From: Citrus sinensis
Taxonomy: Eukaryota > Streptophyta > Magnoliopsida > Sapindales > Rutaceae
Direction: 5' to 3'
Assembly: GCF_022201045.2 (NCBI RefSeq)
Contig: NC_068564.1
Coordinates: 2,542,001 to 2,606,000, forward strand
Length of the DNA: 64,000 bases
This document shows, piece after piece, positions 26,521-62,525 of the stretch (position 1 is its first letter; every line of letters begins with the position of its first letter). Both the position numbers and the translations under genes were made by a program. The notes under the pieces are model-generated. The model had not been told where the DNA came from, made no database searches, and saw only the letters and a list, made by a program, of their open reading frames with translations.

Positions 26521-27239
26521 GTGTCATCTTGACACCAAGAGTAGGAGTAAAGCCACTTGATTTATAGCACTACCTCGTTGTCATAAAGGTGTCACCTCGG
26601 CACCAAGCGTAGGAGCAAAGTGTCTTGTTCGCATCACCTCTTTACCCACAAAAGTGTTACCTCGGTACCAAGTGTAGAAATAACACGCTTTGTTGGCGCC
26701 GCCTTGTTGCCTCAAAAATGTCACCTTCGCATCAAGCGTAAGAGCAAAGCACCTCGTTGGCATTGTTTTGTTGCCACGAATGTGTCACCTTGGCACCAAA
26801 CGTAAGAGCAACGTGTCTTGTTGGTGTCACTTTGTTGTCATGAAGTGTCACCTCGACACCAATTGTAGGAGCAACTTACCTTATTAGCGTTGCCTCCTTC
26901 CCACGAAGATGTCATCTTAGTACCACTGCATTAGGAGAAACACACCTTATTGGCACTGTCATTTACCAAGAAGGTATCGCCTTGACACCAAGCGTATGAG
27001 CAATACACATTGTTACCGTCACTTTATTGCCACGAAGATGTCACCTTAGCACTGCCTTGTTGCCACAAATATGTCACTTCAACACTAAGCGTAAGTGCAA
27101 CACACTTTGTTGGGGCCACCTAATTGCCATAAAGGTGTCAACTCAGCACCAATGCATTAAGAGCAATCCACCTAGTTATACAAAGGTGTCATCTCGGCAC
27201 TACTTCGTCATTACAAATATGAGATTTCATCTTGACATA
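26521..27239. repeat. minisatellite with a unit of about 64 bp
   Basis: About eleven diverged units, recognisable by GTGTCACCTCGGCACCAAGC, then GTAGGAGCAA, then TTGTTGGC and TTGCCACGAA. Starts of the first block fall near 26521, 26588, 26652, 26717, 26781, 26844, 26909, 26974, 27038, 27070 (short), 27137 and 27187. Frames running through it (PRWHCFVATNVS-like) are repeat artefacts and not genes. Confidence 0.9.
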
Positions 27240-36497: not shown

Positions 36498-36506
36498 TAT
36501 TTTTTT
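36498..36506. repeat. 9-bp target duplication of the MULE, left (TATTTTTTT)
   Basis: Matches 44567-44575. Nine bases is the standard duplication made by Mutator-type transposases. The sequence is low in complexity, so it is weaker evidence alone than the TIRs. Confidence 0.8.
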
Positions 36507-36589
36507 GGGAAATTTTACAAATTAGCCATTAAAATTTTGCATTTCTCACTTTTAACCCCACTAACTTATTTCTATCAATATTAGCCAAA
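36507..36589 (+). repeat. MULE left terminal inverted repeat
   Basis: Eighty-three bases from GGGAAATTTT to TTAGCCAAA. It matches the inverse of 44484-44566 with mismatches mostly in the first 20 bases. Confidence 0.95.
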
Positions 36590-36976
36590 TAACAAACTTT
36601 TGGACCATAATACCCTTGCAATCTCACCCAGAGCTCACCAAAGCTTGAACTCACCTACACTTCTCACCAAACGGAAGCACCATAGAGAGCCAAATCGGAG
36701 ACCATCATCGGCGGCAATCTCACCGGAATCCCGTTCAGCAACACTAATTCCACCAAAATCACGTATAATAGCAATCAAAATCTCCAAGATAACAGTTGAA
36801 GTTCAAAAACCCTAGGTTAGCAATTTCAAACACATGCTTTATATTGTTCTTGTGTTGTGTTGTGATTGTGTATTGTTGTGATGATGTTTGTGGTGGTTGG
36901 TGGTCTATTGTCGGACTGTGTTGGAGGCAATACGTTGCAATGGCTGTTGACCAATTTGTGAAAATTCAAATTTTTT

Positions 36977-37195
36977 GTGCGATAGGTTCCTGTCGCACCA
37001 AATTTTGCGCGACTGCCTTTCTGTCGCACAAAAAATATGATTACACAATCTGAAATTTTGTGCGACAGGTTCCCGTCGCACCAAATTTTGTGCGACTGCC
37101 TTTCTGTCGCACAAAAAAATCTGATTACACTATCTGAAATTTTGTGCGACAGGTTCCCATCGCACCAAATTTTGTGCAACAGATGCTATCGCACA
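36977..37195. repeat. left subterminal palindrome array of the MULE
   Basis: Six 21-23 bp palindromes with arms GTGCGAC and GTCGCAC (some mutated), in a repeat of about 82 bp (about 2.5 copies) joined by spacers such as GATTACACAATCTGAAATTT. It ends about 170 bases before the transposase ATG. Confidence 0.9.
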
Positions 37196-37363
37196 AAAAA
37201 ATCATATTACACAAAATTTAGGTTATTTTCTGGAGGTCATAATTACAGCTAAATAAATTCATTTTTTGTGTATAATATATCATTTCAACGCTTGCAACGA
37301 AACAAATCAAACCCACAATGTGTAACCACATTTGTTATATTTTTTGTATATTTTGTAGATTTA

Positions 37364-40009
37364 ATGGATTCAGTTGTACTTCAACTGTGTTACGACGGTT
37401 GGTGGGAGATGTTGGCGGATGGGAGTATGGAGTACGTGAATGGTAATAATACAGCCTTTCTAATTCGAAAAGACTGTACATTTGATCAGTTTCTGGCAAG
37501 AGTTTATGATGTGTTACAGATAAATCGTAATGAATACAATATCACCATGAAGACAACTTTGAGGTCTAGTAATACAATGTATCGTACATGTTCACTGCCT
37601 ATGGACATATTTAACGATGAAATAGTCAAGGTTGTGTTACATATGGCCTCTGATGTGGTAAATTACGGATGCATTCCTATATTTGTGACCACATCTTCTC
37701 GAGTTGATTACCAAGATCTTGAGCCACCTGTAAAAACTGAAACTTCTTTTAGAGCAAATGTCTCTGTTCCTGATAGTGAAGAAGAGGTATTACCACAGAC
37801 ACTGTCTTTACAACAACGTTACTCTCCACTCCACGGCTACAATGACACTATTAATGACAATGGCATTACTCTAGCGGATGTTGAAGCAGAGGCATTACCA
37901 CAGACACTGTCATTAGAGCAACGTTACTCTCCATCCTACAATAATGAATTTCGCAGTAATGATGATCCTATTGACGACATCGGCAACACAGCAGTAGATA
38001 ATGTTTGTATGGAACCATATAATAATACAACGGACAACCATTTCAATAGTTCAGTTTGTGATGGAGGCGTTGGTCCTTCTCATATTCCTACTAATGTTGA
38101 TGATGATGATCAGAATAGTATTCCTATTAATAACATTGCCAACCAACCTATTCCTTCAGTGCCACGTTCAAGAAGGAGAACAACAGTTGACCACCTCGCA
38201 CAACTTGCTCCAGTTTTACCTTCAAACTTAGCTGCTCCTAACTTGGTCAGAAATTATAATTATGATGATATTAGTGTGGGTAAGTTGTTTGTTGCCAAGA
38301 ATGAGTTAATACTACAACTGCGTAAAGTTGCCTTGAGGGGTAAATTTGATTTCAGGATCACACGGTCCACAACAACACATTTCGAGGCTCAGTGTTCTTC
38401 GGAATTATGTAAATGGCGTATTCGAGCAACAAGAGTTTCGAATGAGCAGAATGTTCCGTGGTTAGTGAGAAGAGTTGACAACGTACACACTTGTTGTAAT
38501 GAGGTATTGGCTGGTGGTGTTCATCAAGTAAGGAGTCGGGTTGTTGGTCATATTATTGCGGACAAGTTCATCCAAGAAAAATGAATATATACTCCAAATG
38601 ACATCAGAGCAGACATCCAGCAGGAATACGGTGTCCAATTAACATATCAGCAAGCATATCGGGCCAAAGAAGTTGGCCTTGAAATAGTTCGAGGCAACCC
38701 TACAGAATCATATAACTTACTTCTTAAATACTCTCATGTTTTGACCAAAGCAAATGAAGGTACAGTTACTCACCTGCGGCGAGATGGAAATGATAATTTC
38801 TTATACTATTTTGTAGCTATTGGCTCTTCTATCAAGGGTTTCATGCAGTGCATGAGGCCAATGATTGCTATGGATGGTACTCATCTAAAGGGGTTATACC
38901 GTGGAACTATGTTTGTTGCGACCTGCCCGGATGGAAACAACCAATTGTATCTGTTAGCCATTGGGGTTATGGATTCGGAAAATAATGATGCTTGGGAATG
39001 GTTTATGACGAAATTACATAGAGTAATTGGTGATATGCCGGAGTTGGTATTTATCTCAGACCGATGCACTGCGATCAAGAGAGCCGTTTTAAAAGTATTT
39101 CACTCAGCTTCCCATGGCGTTTGTTTTTACCATGTCAAAGGTAACGTTAAGTCAAAATTCAAGATGTCGAAAGCTCTTTGGGATGAATTTGAGCCTGCCT
39201 TCATAAACGCAGCGAAAACATATGGACACGAAGAATTTAAAAAACAACTAGAGGGGTTGTGGCAACTCCACGCGGGTGCAGCTAACTACTTAGAGAATAA
39301 TGTTGGCACATGTAATTGAGCAAAGTCTGAGTTCGAAGGTAGAAGGTACAGTATTCTAACCACCAACATTGCAGAGAGCGTGAATTCATTATTGAGGGGA
39401 CTGAGGAAATTTCCTATAACTCATCTTGTTGATCACTTTAGGAAAATATTGCAGCAATGGTTTTATGATAGGAAAATTACGGCTGAGTTGATGAGTACTC
39501 GTCTAACAACGTGGGCAGACGAAATAGTCTCTGATAGGAGAACTTTGGCTGAAAGAATGATCGTTCGTCCTGTGGCTCAGTATCGATTTCATGTTTTGAG
39601 TGGTGGTATTAAAGAAGGGATAGTTGACATTCGTGAGAAGACTTGCTCCTGTAGAGTGTTCCAACTTGATCAGCTTGTTTGTGCACATGCAATTGCTGCT
39701 TTCATAACCGTGCGCGTGGATTACATAAGTCTTTGTTCCGAATTTTACACTCAGGAATCATTAGTGACGGCTTATGCACAACCAGTAGAGCCTGTTGGCG
39801 ACATGGCAGATTGAGAGGTTCCTGAGGAAATTTGAGCAATGAAAGTTAACCCACCAATAGAAGCACCACTGCCTGCCCATCGTCCAGAGCTCAGAATACC
39901 CTCTGTTGGTGAGGATGTTGACAGGAGAACTATAAGATGTGGCCGGTGCAACGAAGTGGGTCATAACCGAAAAAAGTGCAAAAATCCCATTGCGTCGACA
40001 CGAAGCTAA
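37364..40009 (+). pseudogene. mudrA-type MULE transposase, broken by TGA stops
   Basis: One reading frame of 882 codons, interrupted only by TGA at 38582, 39317, 39812 and 39833, ending at TAA 40007. Domains in order: an N-terminal region as in plant MuDR proteins (about residues 1-115); an acidic linker with LPQTLSL(Q/E)QRYSP twice; a MuDR DNA-binding domain with CCHC-like zinc ligands (about 300-400; CSSELCKW and VHTCC); the MULE DDE catalytic domain with MDGTHLKG (first Asp) and FISDRCTAIKRAV (second Asp); a SWIM zinc finger (CSCRVFQLDQLVCAHAIAA); and a CCHC zinc knuckle (CGRCNEVGHNRKKC). The start at 37364 is chosen because it follows a possible acceptor (TTTTGTAG) and gives the typical N-terminus; the frame is open from 37268. 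At the second stop, family alignment expects Trp before AKSEF, so TGG to TGA fits. Confidence 0.92.
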
Positions 40010-40214
40010 TTGTATCATTTTAAATTGTTATGTATTTTGAGATTTGATTTTTATTTATTGCACCATTATATATAACAACCTATTTAATTTCTATTATATT
40101 GCAAATTTTTTATTTCAATTATATGTAAAAAAAAGTTTTGTACACACCAATAATAATTATAAATACAATCGTCTAAAATCCAATTTCATCATTATATATC
40201 ACTGCCACAATATC

Positions 40215-43200
40215 CTAAAGGCCGATATCACCATTAAATATGTCTACAACAATTTTCTTCCTAAAGTATTGCTCGTGGCCACTAGTAAAATTAAGTCTTA
40301 GCCCAAACATTAAATACATCGTGATCATCAACATAAAAACGCCGCAATCGCCACTACCAGGCTCTTGTTGCGGCACACCCTTACATATTTTGACATTCCA
40401 AGGGTTGGCATTCCGCAAGTCATGTCGGACGTTGTAAAATCCGACATCTTCTAACCATCGAGGGAAGACGACTTCAAGTGGCTTGAACTTATCCTTGTAC
40501 GTTTTATCATCACGAATTGCCACCAACGAGTCATAAATCCACACATTTTTCTTGCGAAGGTCGACTCAAGCTACTATCCAATGATCGCCGCCCAGATTCA
40601 CGGGAATGAAAACCTACATACATTAATTAATGCAAGTTAATTGTTATGTTTAAGATATTAAAAAAAATATAAACCATCTTGAATTGCGTAGCTATTCTAA
40701 CCATATCGACGTCTGTGAAACGTTTCGACATGATTTCTTCTCGTCCATCAATATAACTATTAAAGTTGTAGCTATATTGTAATGAATTAAGGTCACAGTC
40801 ACCATCGTTCCATAATTACTTCAAAAAGACCTAGAAGATATATTCAAAGAAAAATAACAGGAGAGTATCAATATCAACATGCTATTACAATATAAGAAAT
40901 TGAGAGGTTAATTACAAGTTCTGTAAGATCATTACCCAAAAAAACGTATATGTATGCGTGACACGTTGAGACATGGCATTTGGATACTGTCTCTGTTTTT
41001 CACTTATCAATCGCAAGTACTCATGGATGTACTGTAGCATAATATAAACATGTTGGTTTAAAATAGAAATAGTAGATGAGACGTATAAGAAAAAAAACAT
41101 TTAAAAAAGCTAACCTCATCCCCCAACCATCCAAGTGCATCGTGGCCCAACAGTATTTCAAAAAATTTATGCGATTGTCGAATAGTGCGATCCACTGTTA
41201 TTGCGCTAGCAAACCACTGATCGAACTCATCGAATCCTCTTGGATCCTCCAATCCTCTAAGTGAGTTTATATCGACATTGGTTCTTTCATCGATATCACG
41301 ATCCATTATTTGGAGTGTAGGCGCAGGCCTAATGTTCTTTACTTTCTTGAAAGGAGGAATCATGTACGGACTATCAAAAACATATGAGGGCCGGTAGGGA
41401 CGTCCAAACTTACTTATGCATGGCGGCGCCTCCGTCAAGATTTGCACGCTATCACCACTTACTTCCCCGTACAAACTGTATAATGACATGGGAGTCTGAT
41501 CGTTGTTGCCACCAACATCAGTATATACTCCTCGGTCTCCCAGGGTCTGTCATTTAAAATAAGATAAATATATTAAACTAATGTCAGATTAAAATATCAA
41601 ATAACAAACATAAAATGCTAAACTACCCTACCATATACGAGCGTCCAGTCGGAGAAGTATCGTATCCACGCTTGGACGTACCATCATTATATGAATGAAT
41701 GAACCCCATCACATCTTGTCTAAACTCCCTTAATTCTGACTTCAGCGCAAAAATGGAGCTATCAATTTTGTCCATCCGTCGAATGACATAATCGAAGGAC
41801 AACTTTGTCCTAGACTGGTATCAGGGTAGACAAATATAACAACATAGTGTTAAAATGATTTATTAATTTATATTTGTGCAACAAAGATGATTATTAAGAA
41901 AAATATAACCTCAGGATCCTTTGTGTTGTCAGAATTATAGTCCCGGTCGTCCTGGTCAGCTGGAGCATGCTCGTTGCGGTCGTTGTAGTCAGATGGAGCA
42001 TGCTCGTTATGGTCATCGTGGTCAGATGGAGCATGTTCATCGCGGTCAGATGGAGCATGCTCATCGCGGTCATCCTGGTTAGCTGGAGCATGCTCATTGT
42101 CAATAGGGTTCTGCTCCGGTACCTTCATTCGAATGAGCGGCGCATTGACTATAAATTGATGCTGCACATGGTACAAAATAATGAATAAATAATTAGTAAC
42201 ATTGTCGAGATTTGATAATATACATAACTTTTTACTACTCCATGCCACTTACATTACGAACCCATATTGGGATACGTGGCACGTAATCCTTCACAGACTT
42301 CCAATAATTTGTAATTTCCTCATTTGCATCTGCCTAGAGGGTTTGCATAACATTCCCCTGTCAGTTGATTACCAAATTTGAAGTTAGAAAATCTTTTTAG
42401 TACTTAACATTTTTATCGTTGTTTAAATATATATAATACTTACAACATGAGTGTTATCATTGAAAAACAAATGCACTGCATCATAAGTTATTTTCGAAGA
42501 AACAAATGCCTTCCACTTTAAGATGCGGGGAATATGATTGTTTATCTTTACGACCCACTGTGATGGTATCCCCTCGATCACTTCGAAAAGTCAAGCCTAC
42601 AACAAACAAAGTTAAAAAACCACATAAGTTAATTTGGTATAAATATACTACTAACGAAGTCTAATATATATATATTTTTTTACCAACTCACCTGAACCCC
42701 ATAACTGAACCCATAAATATTGTATTTCTCAATATTATGAGAAGGATCTTTCAAACGCTCCATCTTAAATTTGTTGGCCTTCTGGTTCAATGCATTGTTC
42801 AAACTGTTGTATATTATTTCCCACGATAAACGACCCCATGGACGACTTCGAAAGTGGTCTATATCGTCAACATGATTCATTAGCTGAAAGTCAGCTTGAC
42901 TATGATCCTTTCTCCCCTTCAATACCCTATCCGCAAAGTAATACAACGCGATTTTCAAGGCATCAGTGTCGTCCATGGCACGAAATTTCAAAGCGAAAAA
43001 TCTAGCATCCAATTGCTTGAGAGTCAAGTCCTTAAACCGACCACCGAAGTACTTATTAAGCAACCTATGTTGCGTCTTCAAATTTTTTGGTTCGACATTT
43101 GGACCATTGGAAAGCCTCGTAATGAGGCACCATTCTCCAATTGATAAACGAACCAAGTGCTCTCCAATTTGAAACCATAATTGATTTTTATTAGTTTTTT

Positions 43201-43468
43201 TATGTGCCACTTGCCTAAGCAATAGGTTGTGAAATATAACACCACTGAAATTATAACTACCCAAGTCCAGAAAGTGCCCAAAAACATCACTTCTAAACAA
43301 TGACAATTGTTTGCGCGTTAGCTTACACTGGATAGTTGCGATGATTTTTTTAAATTTTGACATCTCTGAAATACGACCCGAGAAATGATCATCAAAATAT
43401 AACTTCATCACGCCCGACTCCTTCCCAGGTTCAGGCGGATTGCGCTTTGCCAACTTAGTTTTCGCCAT
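40215..43468 (-). pseudogene. DUF1985 / Ulp1 (C48) protease-like gene carried by the MULE
   Basis: Exon 1 (43468-42692) encodes MAKTKLAK and a DUF1985-type domain (FSGRISEMSKFKKI, FLDLGSYNFSG, LSIGEWCLITRLSNG). It ends with a good donor (CAG|GTGAGT). Further pieces: about 42600-42454 (IPSQWVVKI), 42163-41910 (acidic repeats), about 41814-41632, 41549-41113, about 41040-40920, and the end at 40611-40215. The last piece holds the C48 cysteine protease site: GGDHW (His), IWIYDS-type Asp (here VWIYDS), and QEPGSGDCGVFM with catalytic Cys codon at 40344-40346. Two in-frame TGA codons are seen, at 42591-42593 and 40566-40568 (after DHWIVA), both where Trp fits. Ulp1 proteins remove SUMO from targets; the role of such copies in MULEs is unknown. 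Middle exon borders are approximate. Confidence 0.83.
41945..42100 (-). repeat. in-frame acidic repeat in the Ulp1-like gene
   Basis: Five copies of a (D/N)EHAPx(D/N)-type unit, of 24-33 bases each, with DDR/DDH spacers. On the plus strand the unit contains TGGAGCATGCTCNT. It lies between the DUF1985 and protease parts. Confidence 0.88.
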
Positions 43469-43585
43469 CTACCTGAGACAATTGAAATTTTATTCATTAT
43501 TGTGTTATTTATAGAATAATAATATTAATAATATAAAATAAATAAGGTATCTACAAAGTAAAAACGGCCTTGGGTGTAATCTATA

Positions 43586-44095
43586 TTTTTATGCGACAAT
43601 CTATTGCTGCATTTTTTTATCACACACAATCTGAATTTTTGTGCGATGAGTGCCCGTCGCACAAATATTTTTGCGACGGCCATTTATCGCACAAAAAAAT
43701 AGTCTTTTCTTTCAGCAACATGCTTGAATTTAAAGCCGACGGCCACCCGTCGCACAAACTTTGGTGCAAGGGGCACCGGTTGTACAAAAATTAAGATCAA
43801 ATACTCTTGAAAAAAAATTCTGAATTTTTGTGCGACGGGTGCCCGTTGCACAAAAATTTGTGCGACTGACACCCGTCGCACAAAAATTTTTGTGCGATGG
43901 GCACACTGTCGCACAAATATTTTTGCGACGGGCACCCGTCGCACAAAAATTCAGAACGTGTGTTTTGAGTTTTTGTGCGACGGGCACACTGTCGCACAAA
44001 AATTCAGAACGTGTGTTGTGAGTTTTTGTGCGACGGGCACACTGTCGCACAATTTTTTGCGATAGGCACTTTTGTGCGACGGACAAACTCGCGCA
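43586..44095. repeat. right subterminal palindrome array of the MULE
   Basis: About nine palindromes of 21-23 bp with arms GTGCGAC / GTCGCAC, spaced by A/T-rich joints such as AAAAATTCAGAACGTGTGTT. It starts about 120 bases upstream of the Ulp1-like gene's ATG, mirroring the left array. Confidence 0.9.
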
Positions 44096-44122
44096 ATGGG
44101 AATGGGTGCAGCAAGCATTGCA

Positions 44123-44160
44123 CGAGCTGCAGCAACCATCGCGATGCTTGCTGCAGCTCG
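44123..44160. repeat. 38-bp GC-rich near-perfect palindrome
   Basis: Arms of 17 bases (CGAGCTGCAGCAACCAT and ATGCTTGCTGCAGCTCG) around CGCG, with one mismatch. It is embedded in a GCAGC-rich segment (44096-44200) that has further inverted pairs (GGGTGCAGC / GCTGCACCC). Confidence 0.9.
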
Positions 44161-44483
44161 CGCGATGGGTGCTGCACCCATGGCGTTGCAGCCCAATCCC
44201 ACTGCACAATCACGCACCCTTCGCACAAAAAATCTCCGTTACAAAACAACACACTCCCAAAATCCACAACCACCATTACAAGCACTACCACCACTATTGT
44301 TATTCTCAAATTTCATTCTTAATTAATCAAATATAAATAAAATGGCTTACTTATGTTGATGGTGTGTGAAGCCGTCGCCGGTGATGGTTGAAGCTGCCGC
44401 CGTTTTGCCTCTTGGAGATCTCACGTGAAAGAGGTGGAGTTGGGGGAGAGATGGAGAGGGCACTTTGGTCTTGAAATTTTAGT

Positions 44484-44566
44484 TTTGGCTAATATTGATA
44501 GAAATAAGTTAGTGGGGTTAAAAGTGAAAAATGTAAAATTTTAATGGCTATTTGTGTAAATTTTCC
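44484..44566 (-). repeat. MULE right terminal inverted repeat
   Basis: Inverse of 36507-36589; same length, ends at the same relative base. Confidence 0.95.
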
Positions 44567-44575
44567 TATTTTTTT
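44567..44575. repeat. 9-bp target duplication of the MULE, right
   Basis: TATTTTTTT, matching 36498-36506. Confidence 0.8.
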
Positions 44576-60389: not shown

Positions 60390-62525
60390 CAGATCAAGTT
60401 GTGTCATTTGAATTGAATATTGTTAGAGAAGATTGGAGGTAAGTTAATTCTTGGTTTTTATTAATTTGTTATGGAGAAGTATGATTAGATATTTGCAACA
60501 GGAGTACTACCCCAATTCTCTTAAGGGTATTTAAGTATTTTTAGGTTTTTAGAGATATTTTTATCCTAGTATAAAAAAAAAAAGATGTCTTTCCTATTAT
60601 GAAAGAGAGAGAAAGAGAGATCGACTAAGATGAGGAAAAAAACAAAATACGACAGAGAGAAAAAAGAAAAAGAGATGGAAGGAAAAGAGAGAAAAGAAAA
60701 GAAAAAAGAAGAAGAATAATAAGAAGAAAGTCTTCTTCTTGGTTCTGCCATAAGCAATGCATGAGATTAAGTTGTGTAATTTGAATTGGATATTGTTGAA
60801 AGAATATTTGAGGTAAGTTAATTCTTGACTTTCATTAATTTGTTATGGAGAAGTATGATTGGATATTTGCAACAGAAGTAATACCTCAATTCTCTTAAGG
60901 GTATTTAAGTCTTTTTAAATTTTTAGTAATCTTTTTATCCTGGTATAAAAAGAATAAGATATCTTTCCTAATATGAGAGAGAGAAAGAGAGAGAGAGAGA
61001 TCAGTTAAGATGAGGAAAAAAAAACAAAGATCGATAGAGAAGAAAAAAAAGATAGAGGGAAAAGAGAGAAAAGAAAAAAAGAAGAAGAAGAAGAAGAAGA
61101 AGAAAGTTTTTTTCTTGGTTCTTCCGAGAGCAATGCATGAGATCAAGTTGCATCATTTGAATTGGATATTGTTGAGAGAAGATTTGAGGTAAGTTAATTC
61201 TTGATTTCCATTAATTTGTTATAAAGAAGCATGATTAGATATTTGCAACATAAGTAATACCCCAATTCTCTTAAGGGTATTTAAGTCTTTTTAGTTTTGT
61301 AGTAATCTTTTTATCCTAGTATTTAAAAAAAAAGATCTCTTTCTCATTATGAGAGAGAGAGAGAAAAAGAGATCGGCTAAGATGAGGAAAAAAAAAAGAG
61401 ATGAAAGGAAAAGAGAGAAAAAAAAAAGAAAAAAAGAGAAGAATAAGAAGAAAGTCTTCTTGGTTCTGCCATGAGCAACGCATGAGATCAAATTGCTTCA
61501 TTTTAATTGGATACTGTTGAAAAGAGATTGAAGGTAAGTTTTAAGGGTATTTAGGTCTTTTGGGTATTTAGTAATCTTTTTACCCTAATATAAAAAGAAT
61601 AAGATGTCTTTCCTATTATGAGAGAGAGAGAGAGAAAGAAAGAAAGAAAGAAAGAGAGATCGGCTAAGATGAGAAAAAAAAACCAAAGAACGACCGAGAG
61701 GAAAAAAAAGAGATAGAGGGGAAAGAGAGAGAAAAAAAGAATAAAGTCTTCCTCTTGGTTCTGCTGTGAGCAACGTATGAGATCAAGCTGTGTCATTTGA
61801 ATTGGATATTGTTGAGAGAAGATTGGAGGTAAGTTTTAATTCTTGGTTTTCATTAATTTGTTATGGAGAAGCATGATTAGATATTTGCAACAGAAGTAAT
61901 ACCTCAATTCTATTAAAGGTATTTAAGTCTTTTTAATTTTTAGTGATCTTTTTACCCTAGCATAAAAAGAATAAGATGTGTTTCCCATTATGAAAGAGAG
62001 AGAGAAAAGGAGATCGGCTAAGATGAGAAAAAAAAATAAAGAACGAAAGAGAGGGGAAAAAAGATGGAGGGAAAAGAGATAAAAGAAAAAAAAAAAAAGA
62101 AGAAGAAAATTTTCTTCTTGGTTTTGCTGTGAGCAACACACGAGATCAAGTTGCATCATTTGAATTGAATATTGTTGAGAGAAAACTGGAGGTAAGTTTT
62201 AAAGGTATTCAAGTTTTTTTAATTTTTTAGTGACCTTTTTACCCTAGTATAAAAAGAATAAGATGTTTTTCCCATTATAAGAGAGAGAGAAAGAAAAAGA
62301 GATCAACTAAGATGAGAAAAAAAAAACAGAGAACGACAGAGAGGGAAAAAAAAAGATTAAGGGAAAAGAAAGAAAAGAAAAAAAAAAGTCATGAGCAACG
62401 CATGAGATTAAGCTGCGTTATTTGAATTGGATATTATTCAGAGAAGATTGGAAGTTAGTTTTAATTATTGGTTTTCATTAATTGTTTATGGAGAGGCATA
62501 ATTAGATATTTGTAACAAAAGTAAA
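60390..62525. repeat. tandem array with units of about 260-380 bp
   Basis: Six full or shortened units and one partial. Units start (GAGATCAAGTTG or close) at about 60390, 60763, 61139, 61484, 61779, 62142 and 62404, giving lengths near 373, 376, 345, 295, 363, 262 and at least 120. Each unit has TGTCATTTGAATTGGATATT, GGAGGTAAGTT, TATGGAGAAGTATGATTAGA, a TTTTTATCCTAGTATAAAAA stretch, a long purine-only tract (GAGAGA, GAAAAAA), and TCTTGGTTCTGCC. Short units lack the TAATTCTTGGTTTTCATT to AATTCTC portion. The many frames on the minus strand (FFFSLSFS-type) are translations of the purine tract, not genes. Confidence 0.93.

Follow-up and report, generated by a model that had tools for sequence, protein, structure and literature searches.

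Among described plant transposons, the closest counterparts of the element reported here, a Mutator-like element (MULE) of Citrus sinensis, are the VANDAL (Hiun) elements of Arabidopsis, the Kaonashi elements (KI-MULE/KIU), and a set of MULEs from grapevine (Mutavine) and melon. The VANC proteins of VANDAL elements contain DUF1985 and have peptide repeats in their variable parts (PMC5735166), and they bind short motifs that are tandemly arrayed in non-coding regions, which leads to loss of DNA methylation (PMC5735166, PMC10398659). VANDALs have degenerate terminal inverted repeats (TIRs; PMC10398659), though TIRs are present in some VANDAL-group elements of Brassicaceae (PMC6446971). In Kaonashi elements a Ulp1 domain is encoded on the strand opposite to mudrA (PMC2528002), and they are described as a Ulp1-carrying VANC; some VANCs have Ulp1 (KIU) and act as anti-silencers, the role of Ulp1 in these transposons being called unknown in the same 2026 review (PMC13317346). 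In grapevine and melon, TIR-bearing MULEs with a 9-bp target duplication have a Ulp1-like protease (ULP) gene that is situated downstream of the transposase gene and can face either way; families with ULP occur at dispersed places in the transposase tree, and the ULP genes were read as independent captures or frequent loss (PMC2528002). The Citrus element lies within a 64,000-nucleotide stretch of contig NC_068564.1 (positions 2,542,001 to 2,606,000; the window, whose numbering is used below), and comprises a mudrA gene and, convergent with it, a gene with DUF1985 and Peptidase_C48 domains. On balance, it appears to be a decayed, TIR-bearing MuDR-type MULE whose second gene encodes an anti-silencing factor of the VANC type, its C-terminal part being a Ulp1/C48 domain, and this gene, together with arrays of palindromic motifs, appears to have been swapped between transposase lineages.

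With the VANDALs the element shares a second gene carried by the MULE, whose DUF1985 part is homologous to VANC21, as well as short-motif tandem arrays in non-coding parts and a variable region with peptide repeats (PMC5735166). It differs from them in the C48 domain of this gene, in its long TIRs as opposed to degenerate ones, and in its motif, which is palindromic and GC-rich, whereas VANDAL motifs are YAGTATTAY or AGTTGTCC. Kaonashi has the same reverse-oriented Ulp1 domain but is non-TIR, whereas the Citrus TIRs measure 83-130 bp. The grapevine and melon elements (the latter presumably the one named CUMULE) are compared by description only and may carry the same gene as the Citrus element; in contrast to captures or losses, one homologous gene and a common motif are found in Citrus with two transposase lineages.

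Pfam families on the strand opposite to mudrA were Peptidase_C48 (1.7e-14) and DUF1985 (1.6e-16). The DUF1985 exon of the window matches VANC21 (9lnj) at 2.2e-5, and a DUF1985 profile built from five Citrus subfamilies (representatives: A, the family of the window; B, L023; C, L024; D, L025; E, L026) matches VANC21 (9lnj/9lnk) at 9.4e-9 over about 210 residues, with no other match at E<=1 among 177,635 PDB sequences. The DUF1985 part is a VANC homologue and therefore points to sequence-specific anti-silencing. What had been described from the letters alone as a SUMO-protease-like gene does contain the C48 domain, and is more than that: the most fitting reading of this "Ulp1 gene" is a gene of VANC type with a predicted C-terminal Ulp1/C48 SUMO protease domain. 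The C48 profile matches SENP1 at 1.6e-11 and is aligned with it at the active site, where the residues His, Asp, Gln and Cys do not vary among four sequences (the A copy L010, C, D and E; the alignment left out B, with two stops, and the window copy, with one). The roles of the corresponding SENP1 residues are assumed here. The Citrus domain thus resembles the SENP1/Ulp1 SUMO proteases at the active site, and differs from them in being part of a transposon gene with DUF1985; its activity is predicted.

The DUF1985-C48 gene is a regular companion of the transposase in the host genome (300 Mb, 11 contigs searched), which yielded at least 147 matches to DUF1985 and at least 150 each to C48 and the mudrA core. 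A convergent C48 and DUF1985 pair accompanies 84 of the 150 listed mudrA matches, C48 only 26, and DUF1985 only 11 (121/150 with one or both); within 6 kb of these 150, there was neither a same-strand C48 (0) nor one on the wrong side (0). The gene consists of about nine exon-like blocks, which by eye have the same order across subfamilies, and five of them (DUF1985, exons 2, 6, 8 and 9) were detected by tblastn in all nine sequences compared (five of A, one each of B to E); the peptide repeats of the linker vary between A, C and D.

Ratios of non-synonymous to synonymous substitution (dN/dS; NG86) were calculated between subfamily representatives and within family A. The C48 exon gave 0.09 for C-D (dS 0.24), 0.23 for A-B, 0.12 for A-C, 0.14 for A-D and 0.12 for A-E, DUF1985 gave 0.25 (C-D) and 0.17 (A-C), and the MURA core 0.018 (C-D) and 0.06 (A-B); for the unsaturated pair C-D, Fisher's test gave p-values of 9e-8 for C48 and 2e-5 for DUF1985. 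These ratios indicate that the C48 gene has been under purifying selection in the past, as the sequence-only reading had supposed for the protease.

Palindromic tandem arrays are present in representatives of all five subfamilies, with unit lengths that differ between subfamilies. The array motifs are TTTGTGCGACGGGCACCCGTCGCACAAA in A, GTGAGACAGGCGCCTGTCTCAC in B, TTGGTGCGACAGGCNGCCTGTCGCACCAA in C/D, and CGTGCGACAATCTTGTCGCACG and GGGAGACAAG...TTGTCTCCC in E (the A and C/D forms being consensus by eye); the palindrome core is common to the subfamilies and the flanks differ. The genome contains 469 sites of the GTGCGACRGG form, 87 of the B form and nine of the E form, and reversed controls gave 0 each. 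Outside the element, 55.5 kb of the window contain no degenerate palindrome and four single GTGCGAC heptamers. Fifty listed sites of the 469 (on C1, and C2 up to 25.8 Mb) form 23 clusters, of which nine have a DUF1985 or C48 match at most 10 kb away and one stands beside a TIR match; the remaining 13 were all fetched, and a TIR of the window's family was found at 12 of them (at L040 none). Likewise, 50 listed B-form sites form 20 clusters, 17 of them with a DUF1985 or C48 match at most 8 kb away. Sorted by hand, 16 of the B-form clusters have a DUF1985 match, and at 15 of these the match is 58-61% identical to the window DUF1985, which is the range of B, a class that also includes more than B. 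Among 13 periods tried, 10.5 bp fitted the spacings of palindrome centres best (mean cosine 0.715; 0.57 without repeated values), the spacings not being independent. Eight copies (L028, L032, L033, L035, L037, L038, L039 and L041) have 1.0-2.3 kb between their TIRs and 2 to 25 GTGCGAC heptamers, with no protein match to the genes of the window; in L032 and L033 the palindromes are mostly about 31.5 bp (three helical turns) apart.

In subfamily E, the same gene and motif are combined with a different transposase. Two E copies, E1 and E2, share 96% identity across 9.77 kb; their TIRs measure 123 bp and their duplications, judged by eye, 10 and 11 bp, so that the two genes move together as a unit. 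The E transposase, a 708-aa frame with MULE and SWIM domains, has a core only 31% identical to that of the window, as against 86% for B, C and D, whereas its DUF1985 has 52% identity (57-61% in the others) and its C48 62% (69-71%). A like contrast is seen in dN, with 0.76 (A-E) versus 0.06 (A-B) for the MURA core and 0.33 versus 0.29 for DUF1985. The gene-less L057 and L060 align with E at the two termini and in mudrA, and L058 and L061 only in mudrA in the same search; the middle of E aligns with the DUF1985-C48 gene of A.

Arrays of E are located between its two genes and also 5' of mudrA, far from the DUF1985-C48 gene. Three gene-bearing E copies have 10 (E1), 6 (E2) and 9 (C3) GTGCGAC heptamers 5' of mudrA, versus 0 in all eight E-type MULEs (transposases at 61-73% identity) in which the gene was not found; five of these were covered over 7.5 kb, where tblastn found no DUF1985 or C48. 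Markov shuffles predict 1.0 heptamer for E1 and E2 together, where 22 are seen. Fisher's test of motif versus gene gave 0.006 (3/3 versus 0/8), 0.018 with L066 counted as a miss, and 0.002 with L067 added (4/4), values that only indicate, the copies being related. The motif comparison excluded L066, an E copy at C9 of which only 52 bp align to E, so that the 5' side is missing, and the mudrA side of a fifth E-type copy with DUF1985, at C2:9604719. Within this E-type sample, the motif tracks the family of the gene, not the type of transposase.

A mechanism can be proposed on this basis. The DUF1985 part would bind the GTGCGAC-type palindromes in the non-coding parts of the element, and the bound protein would bring the SUMO protease to the element's own copies. 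Removal of SUMO from silencing factors, or a VANC-like action of DUF1985, may then lower DNA methylation, so that the transposase would be expressed, and gene-less copies that keep arrays may profit in trans. The chances are about even, in our estimate, that the DUF1985-C48 gene and its predicted palindromic targets constitute an exchangeable anti-silencing cassette, passed between MULE lineages with transposase cores of about 30% identity, where the recipient would have gained arrays 5' of its own mudrA that the examined gene-less cousins are without.

The arrays could instead be subterminal binding sites of the transposase, with the DUF1985-C48 gene acting in a way unrelated to them. Such sites of CACTA elements behave likewise and adjoin the ends, and the Citrus arrays adjoin the TIRs and persist in the gene-less copies of 1.0-2.3 kb. 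However, transposase cores of A-D and E, about 30% identical, would have to recognize a common motif, none of the eight E-type MULEs without a gene found has it, and E has an array also between its two genes; we regard this explanation as rather unlikely. Unlikely as well, and somewhat more so, is a direct action of the C48 part on the transposase or on SUMO signalling that favours transposition, with no VANC-type anti-silencing role. The active-site residues are kept and the constraint on C48 is comparable to that on DUF1985, as such an action would have it, but the same gene model contains both C48 and the VANC-homologous part, and for VANCs with Ulp1 (KIU) an anti-silencing role is described (PMC13317346).

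That the arrays are passive flanking DNA without function, gained along with the gene, is improbable, although slippage spreads tandem repeats easily, unit lengths differ between subfamilies, and part of the 5' region of E has no alignment to L057. The arrays of E are found also 5' of mudrA, distant from the gene, the palindrome core is common while the flanks diverge, and the spacings, though not independent, fit 10.5 bp best. A single chance capture of a SUMO protease from the host, with the gene now in decay, was rejected on partner frequency and dN/dS, and is hardly credible. The window copy does have stops in both genes, and the genome search that the sequence-only reading had proposed did find gene-less copies with related TIRs; yet a convergent partner occurs at 121 of the 150 listed mudrA matches, the five exon blocks are conserved throughout five subfamilies, and the C48 dN/dS of 0.09-0.23, from the proposed comparison of copies, is not neutral between subfamilies. 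The combination of gene-less copies and a neutral protease, named beforehand as the sign of such a capture, was thus not found as a whole.

Several results weigh against a VANC-type gene that is exchanged together with its targets. The exon chain from DUF1985 to C48 was joined by eye, and an AlphaFold model of the window DUF1985 exon alone had a pLDDT of 37 and was not used. Arabidopsis VANDALs are without long TIRs. Among the matches listed, 29 of 150 mudrA matches have no partner, and three of the 20 B-form clusters have no gene within 8 kb. For 14 further DUF1985 genes, the upstream 2.5 kb contained clear GTGCGAC/GCGAC palindromes in five cases, a partial one in one (L055), and none in eight; the rule that palindromes stand upstream of every DUF1985 gene was accordingly rejected. 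As to selection, exon 6 is not significant for C-D (Fisher p 0.11), dS is above 1 or undefined (near saturation) for most other C48 and DUF1985 pairs, and family A shows few changes with some ratios above 1, all in mudrA, as expected because these copies are decaying. The absence of heptamers from the gene-less E-type set (41.7 kb; expected 0.43, seen 0) is at chance level, and therefore only the contrast in E1 and E2 is informative; moreover, three of the eight were covered over 1.4 kb 5' of mudrA and are gene-less among the matches listed only. Finally, one E-family copy (L067/L068; C5, about 25184080-25190205) is without the DUF1985-C48 gene and has kept five heptamers; this looks like gene loss by internal deletion, and the copy was not counted among the gene-less cousins.

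The element is a MULE by its TIRs, its target duplication of about 9 bp and its MULE transposase domain; the features of the window are summarized in Table 1. The inverted ends, reported as 83 bp long from the letters alone, are 94% identical over 83 bp and 80% over 130 bp. The 9-bp duplication, too, is exact as had been reported; taken alone it is weak evidence, because TATTTTTTT is T-rich and occurs 15 times within the window. Both ends are present at nine of ten family loci fetched, and at the tenth (C8b) the 3' end is gone; judged by eye from the flanks, the duplication is exact in six of the nine two-ended copies (window copy included), has one mismatch in two, and is not clear in one. 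A TIR probe gave 59 candidates in the host genome, of which 40 were scored, and paired ends among them bound copies of 2.2 to 9.8 kb. Related TIRs are found also on gene-less copies.

Table 1. Features of the MULE and its flanks in the window.
Feature	Position	Strand	Remarks
Left target-site duplication, TATTTTTTT	36498..36506		exact match to 44567-44575; low complexity
Whole MULE	36507-44566		8,060 bp
5' terminal inverted repeat	36507..36636	+	
Left subterminal array, GTGCGAC-type palindromes	36973..37214		TRF, 84-bp unit x2.9; inverted repeats
mudrA transposase (DBD_Tnp_Mut, MULE, SWIM, zinc knuckle)	37364..40009	+	four premature stops
Exon 9, C48 protease core	40215..40610	-	one premature stop, between His and Asp regions
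Exon 8	40693..40830	-	one stop in window copy
Exon 6, conserved	41112..41537	-	no Pfam family found in window piece
Exon 5	41626..41820	-	approximate limits, by eye
Exon 4, linker, EHAPSD-type tandem peptide repeat	41910..42170	-	approximate limits, by eye
Exon 2	42438..42596	-	one stop in window copy
Exon 1, DUF1985, homologous to VANC21	42683..43468	-	
Right subterminal array, GTGCGACGGGCACCCGTCGCAC palindromes	43823..44052		units 30/53/63 bp; related repeats from 43634
3' terminal inverted repeat	44437..44566	-	
Right target-site duplication, TATTTTTTT	44567..44575		exact match to 36498-36506

The mudrA gene, whose start is an in-frame ATG picked by eye, matches PF10551 (MULE; 1.2e-20), PF03108 (DBD_Tnp_Mut) and SWIM; its premature stops are at 38582, 39317, 39812 and 39833, and the frame ends at 40007. 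Of the SWIM and zinc-knuckle domains named from the letters, the former was recovered by Pfam, and the latter (CGRCNEVGHNRKKC) is present in the sequence, with no zinc-knuckle family above the Pfam cutoff. The window copy is decayed, with stops in both genes; hence "structurally complete" holds for ends and layout, not for coding, in view of the stops in mudrA and in exons 2, 8 and 9. The convergent DUF1985 and C48 gene was recognized correctly, while the palindromic arrays, the linker peptide repeat and the broken coding state had not been mentioned; overall, the observation was confirmed and the interpretation partly supported. Better preserved copies exist: those on C2 and C6 have mudrA frames of 917-918 aa with no stop, and L010 has no stops in any piece tested.

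Other rearranged copies were also observed. Two family members (L011/L012; C8:919428-935115) lie end to end in opposite orientation, L011 with an exact 9-bp duplication and L012 with its 3' end lost at the junction. Three short copies (L016, L017 and L018) have the 5' end inverted at both termini (inverted repeats of about 560-670 bp), and are therefore hybrids, not plain deletions. In L013 (C1:13466346-13476110), an insertion of about 1.5 kb lies within the C48 exon. Elsewhere in the window, tandem arrays were found at 60391-61449, outside the element (376-bp unit, 2.8 copies), and at 26704-26875 (64-bp unit, 2.7 copies).

Already published are ULP genes in TIR-MULEs in either orientation (grapevine, and melon as cited there; PMC2528002) and Ulp1 in a VANC (PMC13317346). 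The sequence-only reading, which named Ulp1-bearing MULEs and a lack of long TIRs in those of Arabidopsis, was incomplete as to the TIR-MULEs with ULP of grapevine (PMC2528002). Apparently new are the predicted identity of the ULP gene of TIR-MULEs as a VANC homologue, the palindromic arrays, and the putative exchange of gene and motif between transposase lineages; no earlier account of a VANC-Ulp1 gene passing from one MULE lineage to another was found in the literature by title or passages, and among the matches listed for the motif words no title concerned a plant transposon. Sasaki 2022 is said to treat how VANCs gained and lost DUF1985, DUF287 and Ulp1, as well as the sequence, density and helical periodicity of motifs, and may contain part of what is called new here.

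The Citrus family joins a protease to a VANC-type part, and offers a DNA target predicted to span about 20 bp, the copy L010 with no stops in the pieces tested, and natural variants whose targets differ, so that binding, methylation loss and the need for the protease are each testable. If true, the exchange of the gene together with its target would explain the scattered distribution of ULP genes in plant MULEs without repeated capture.

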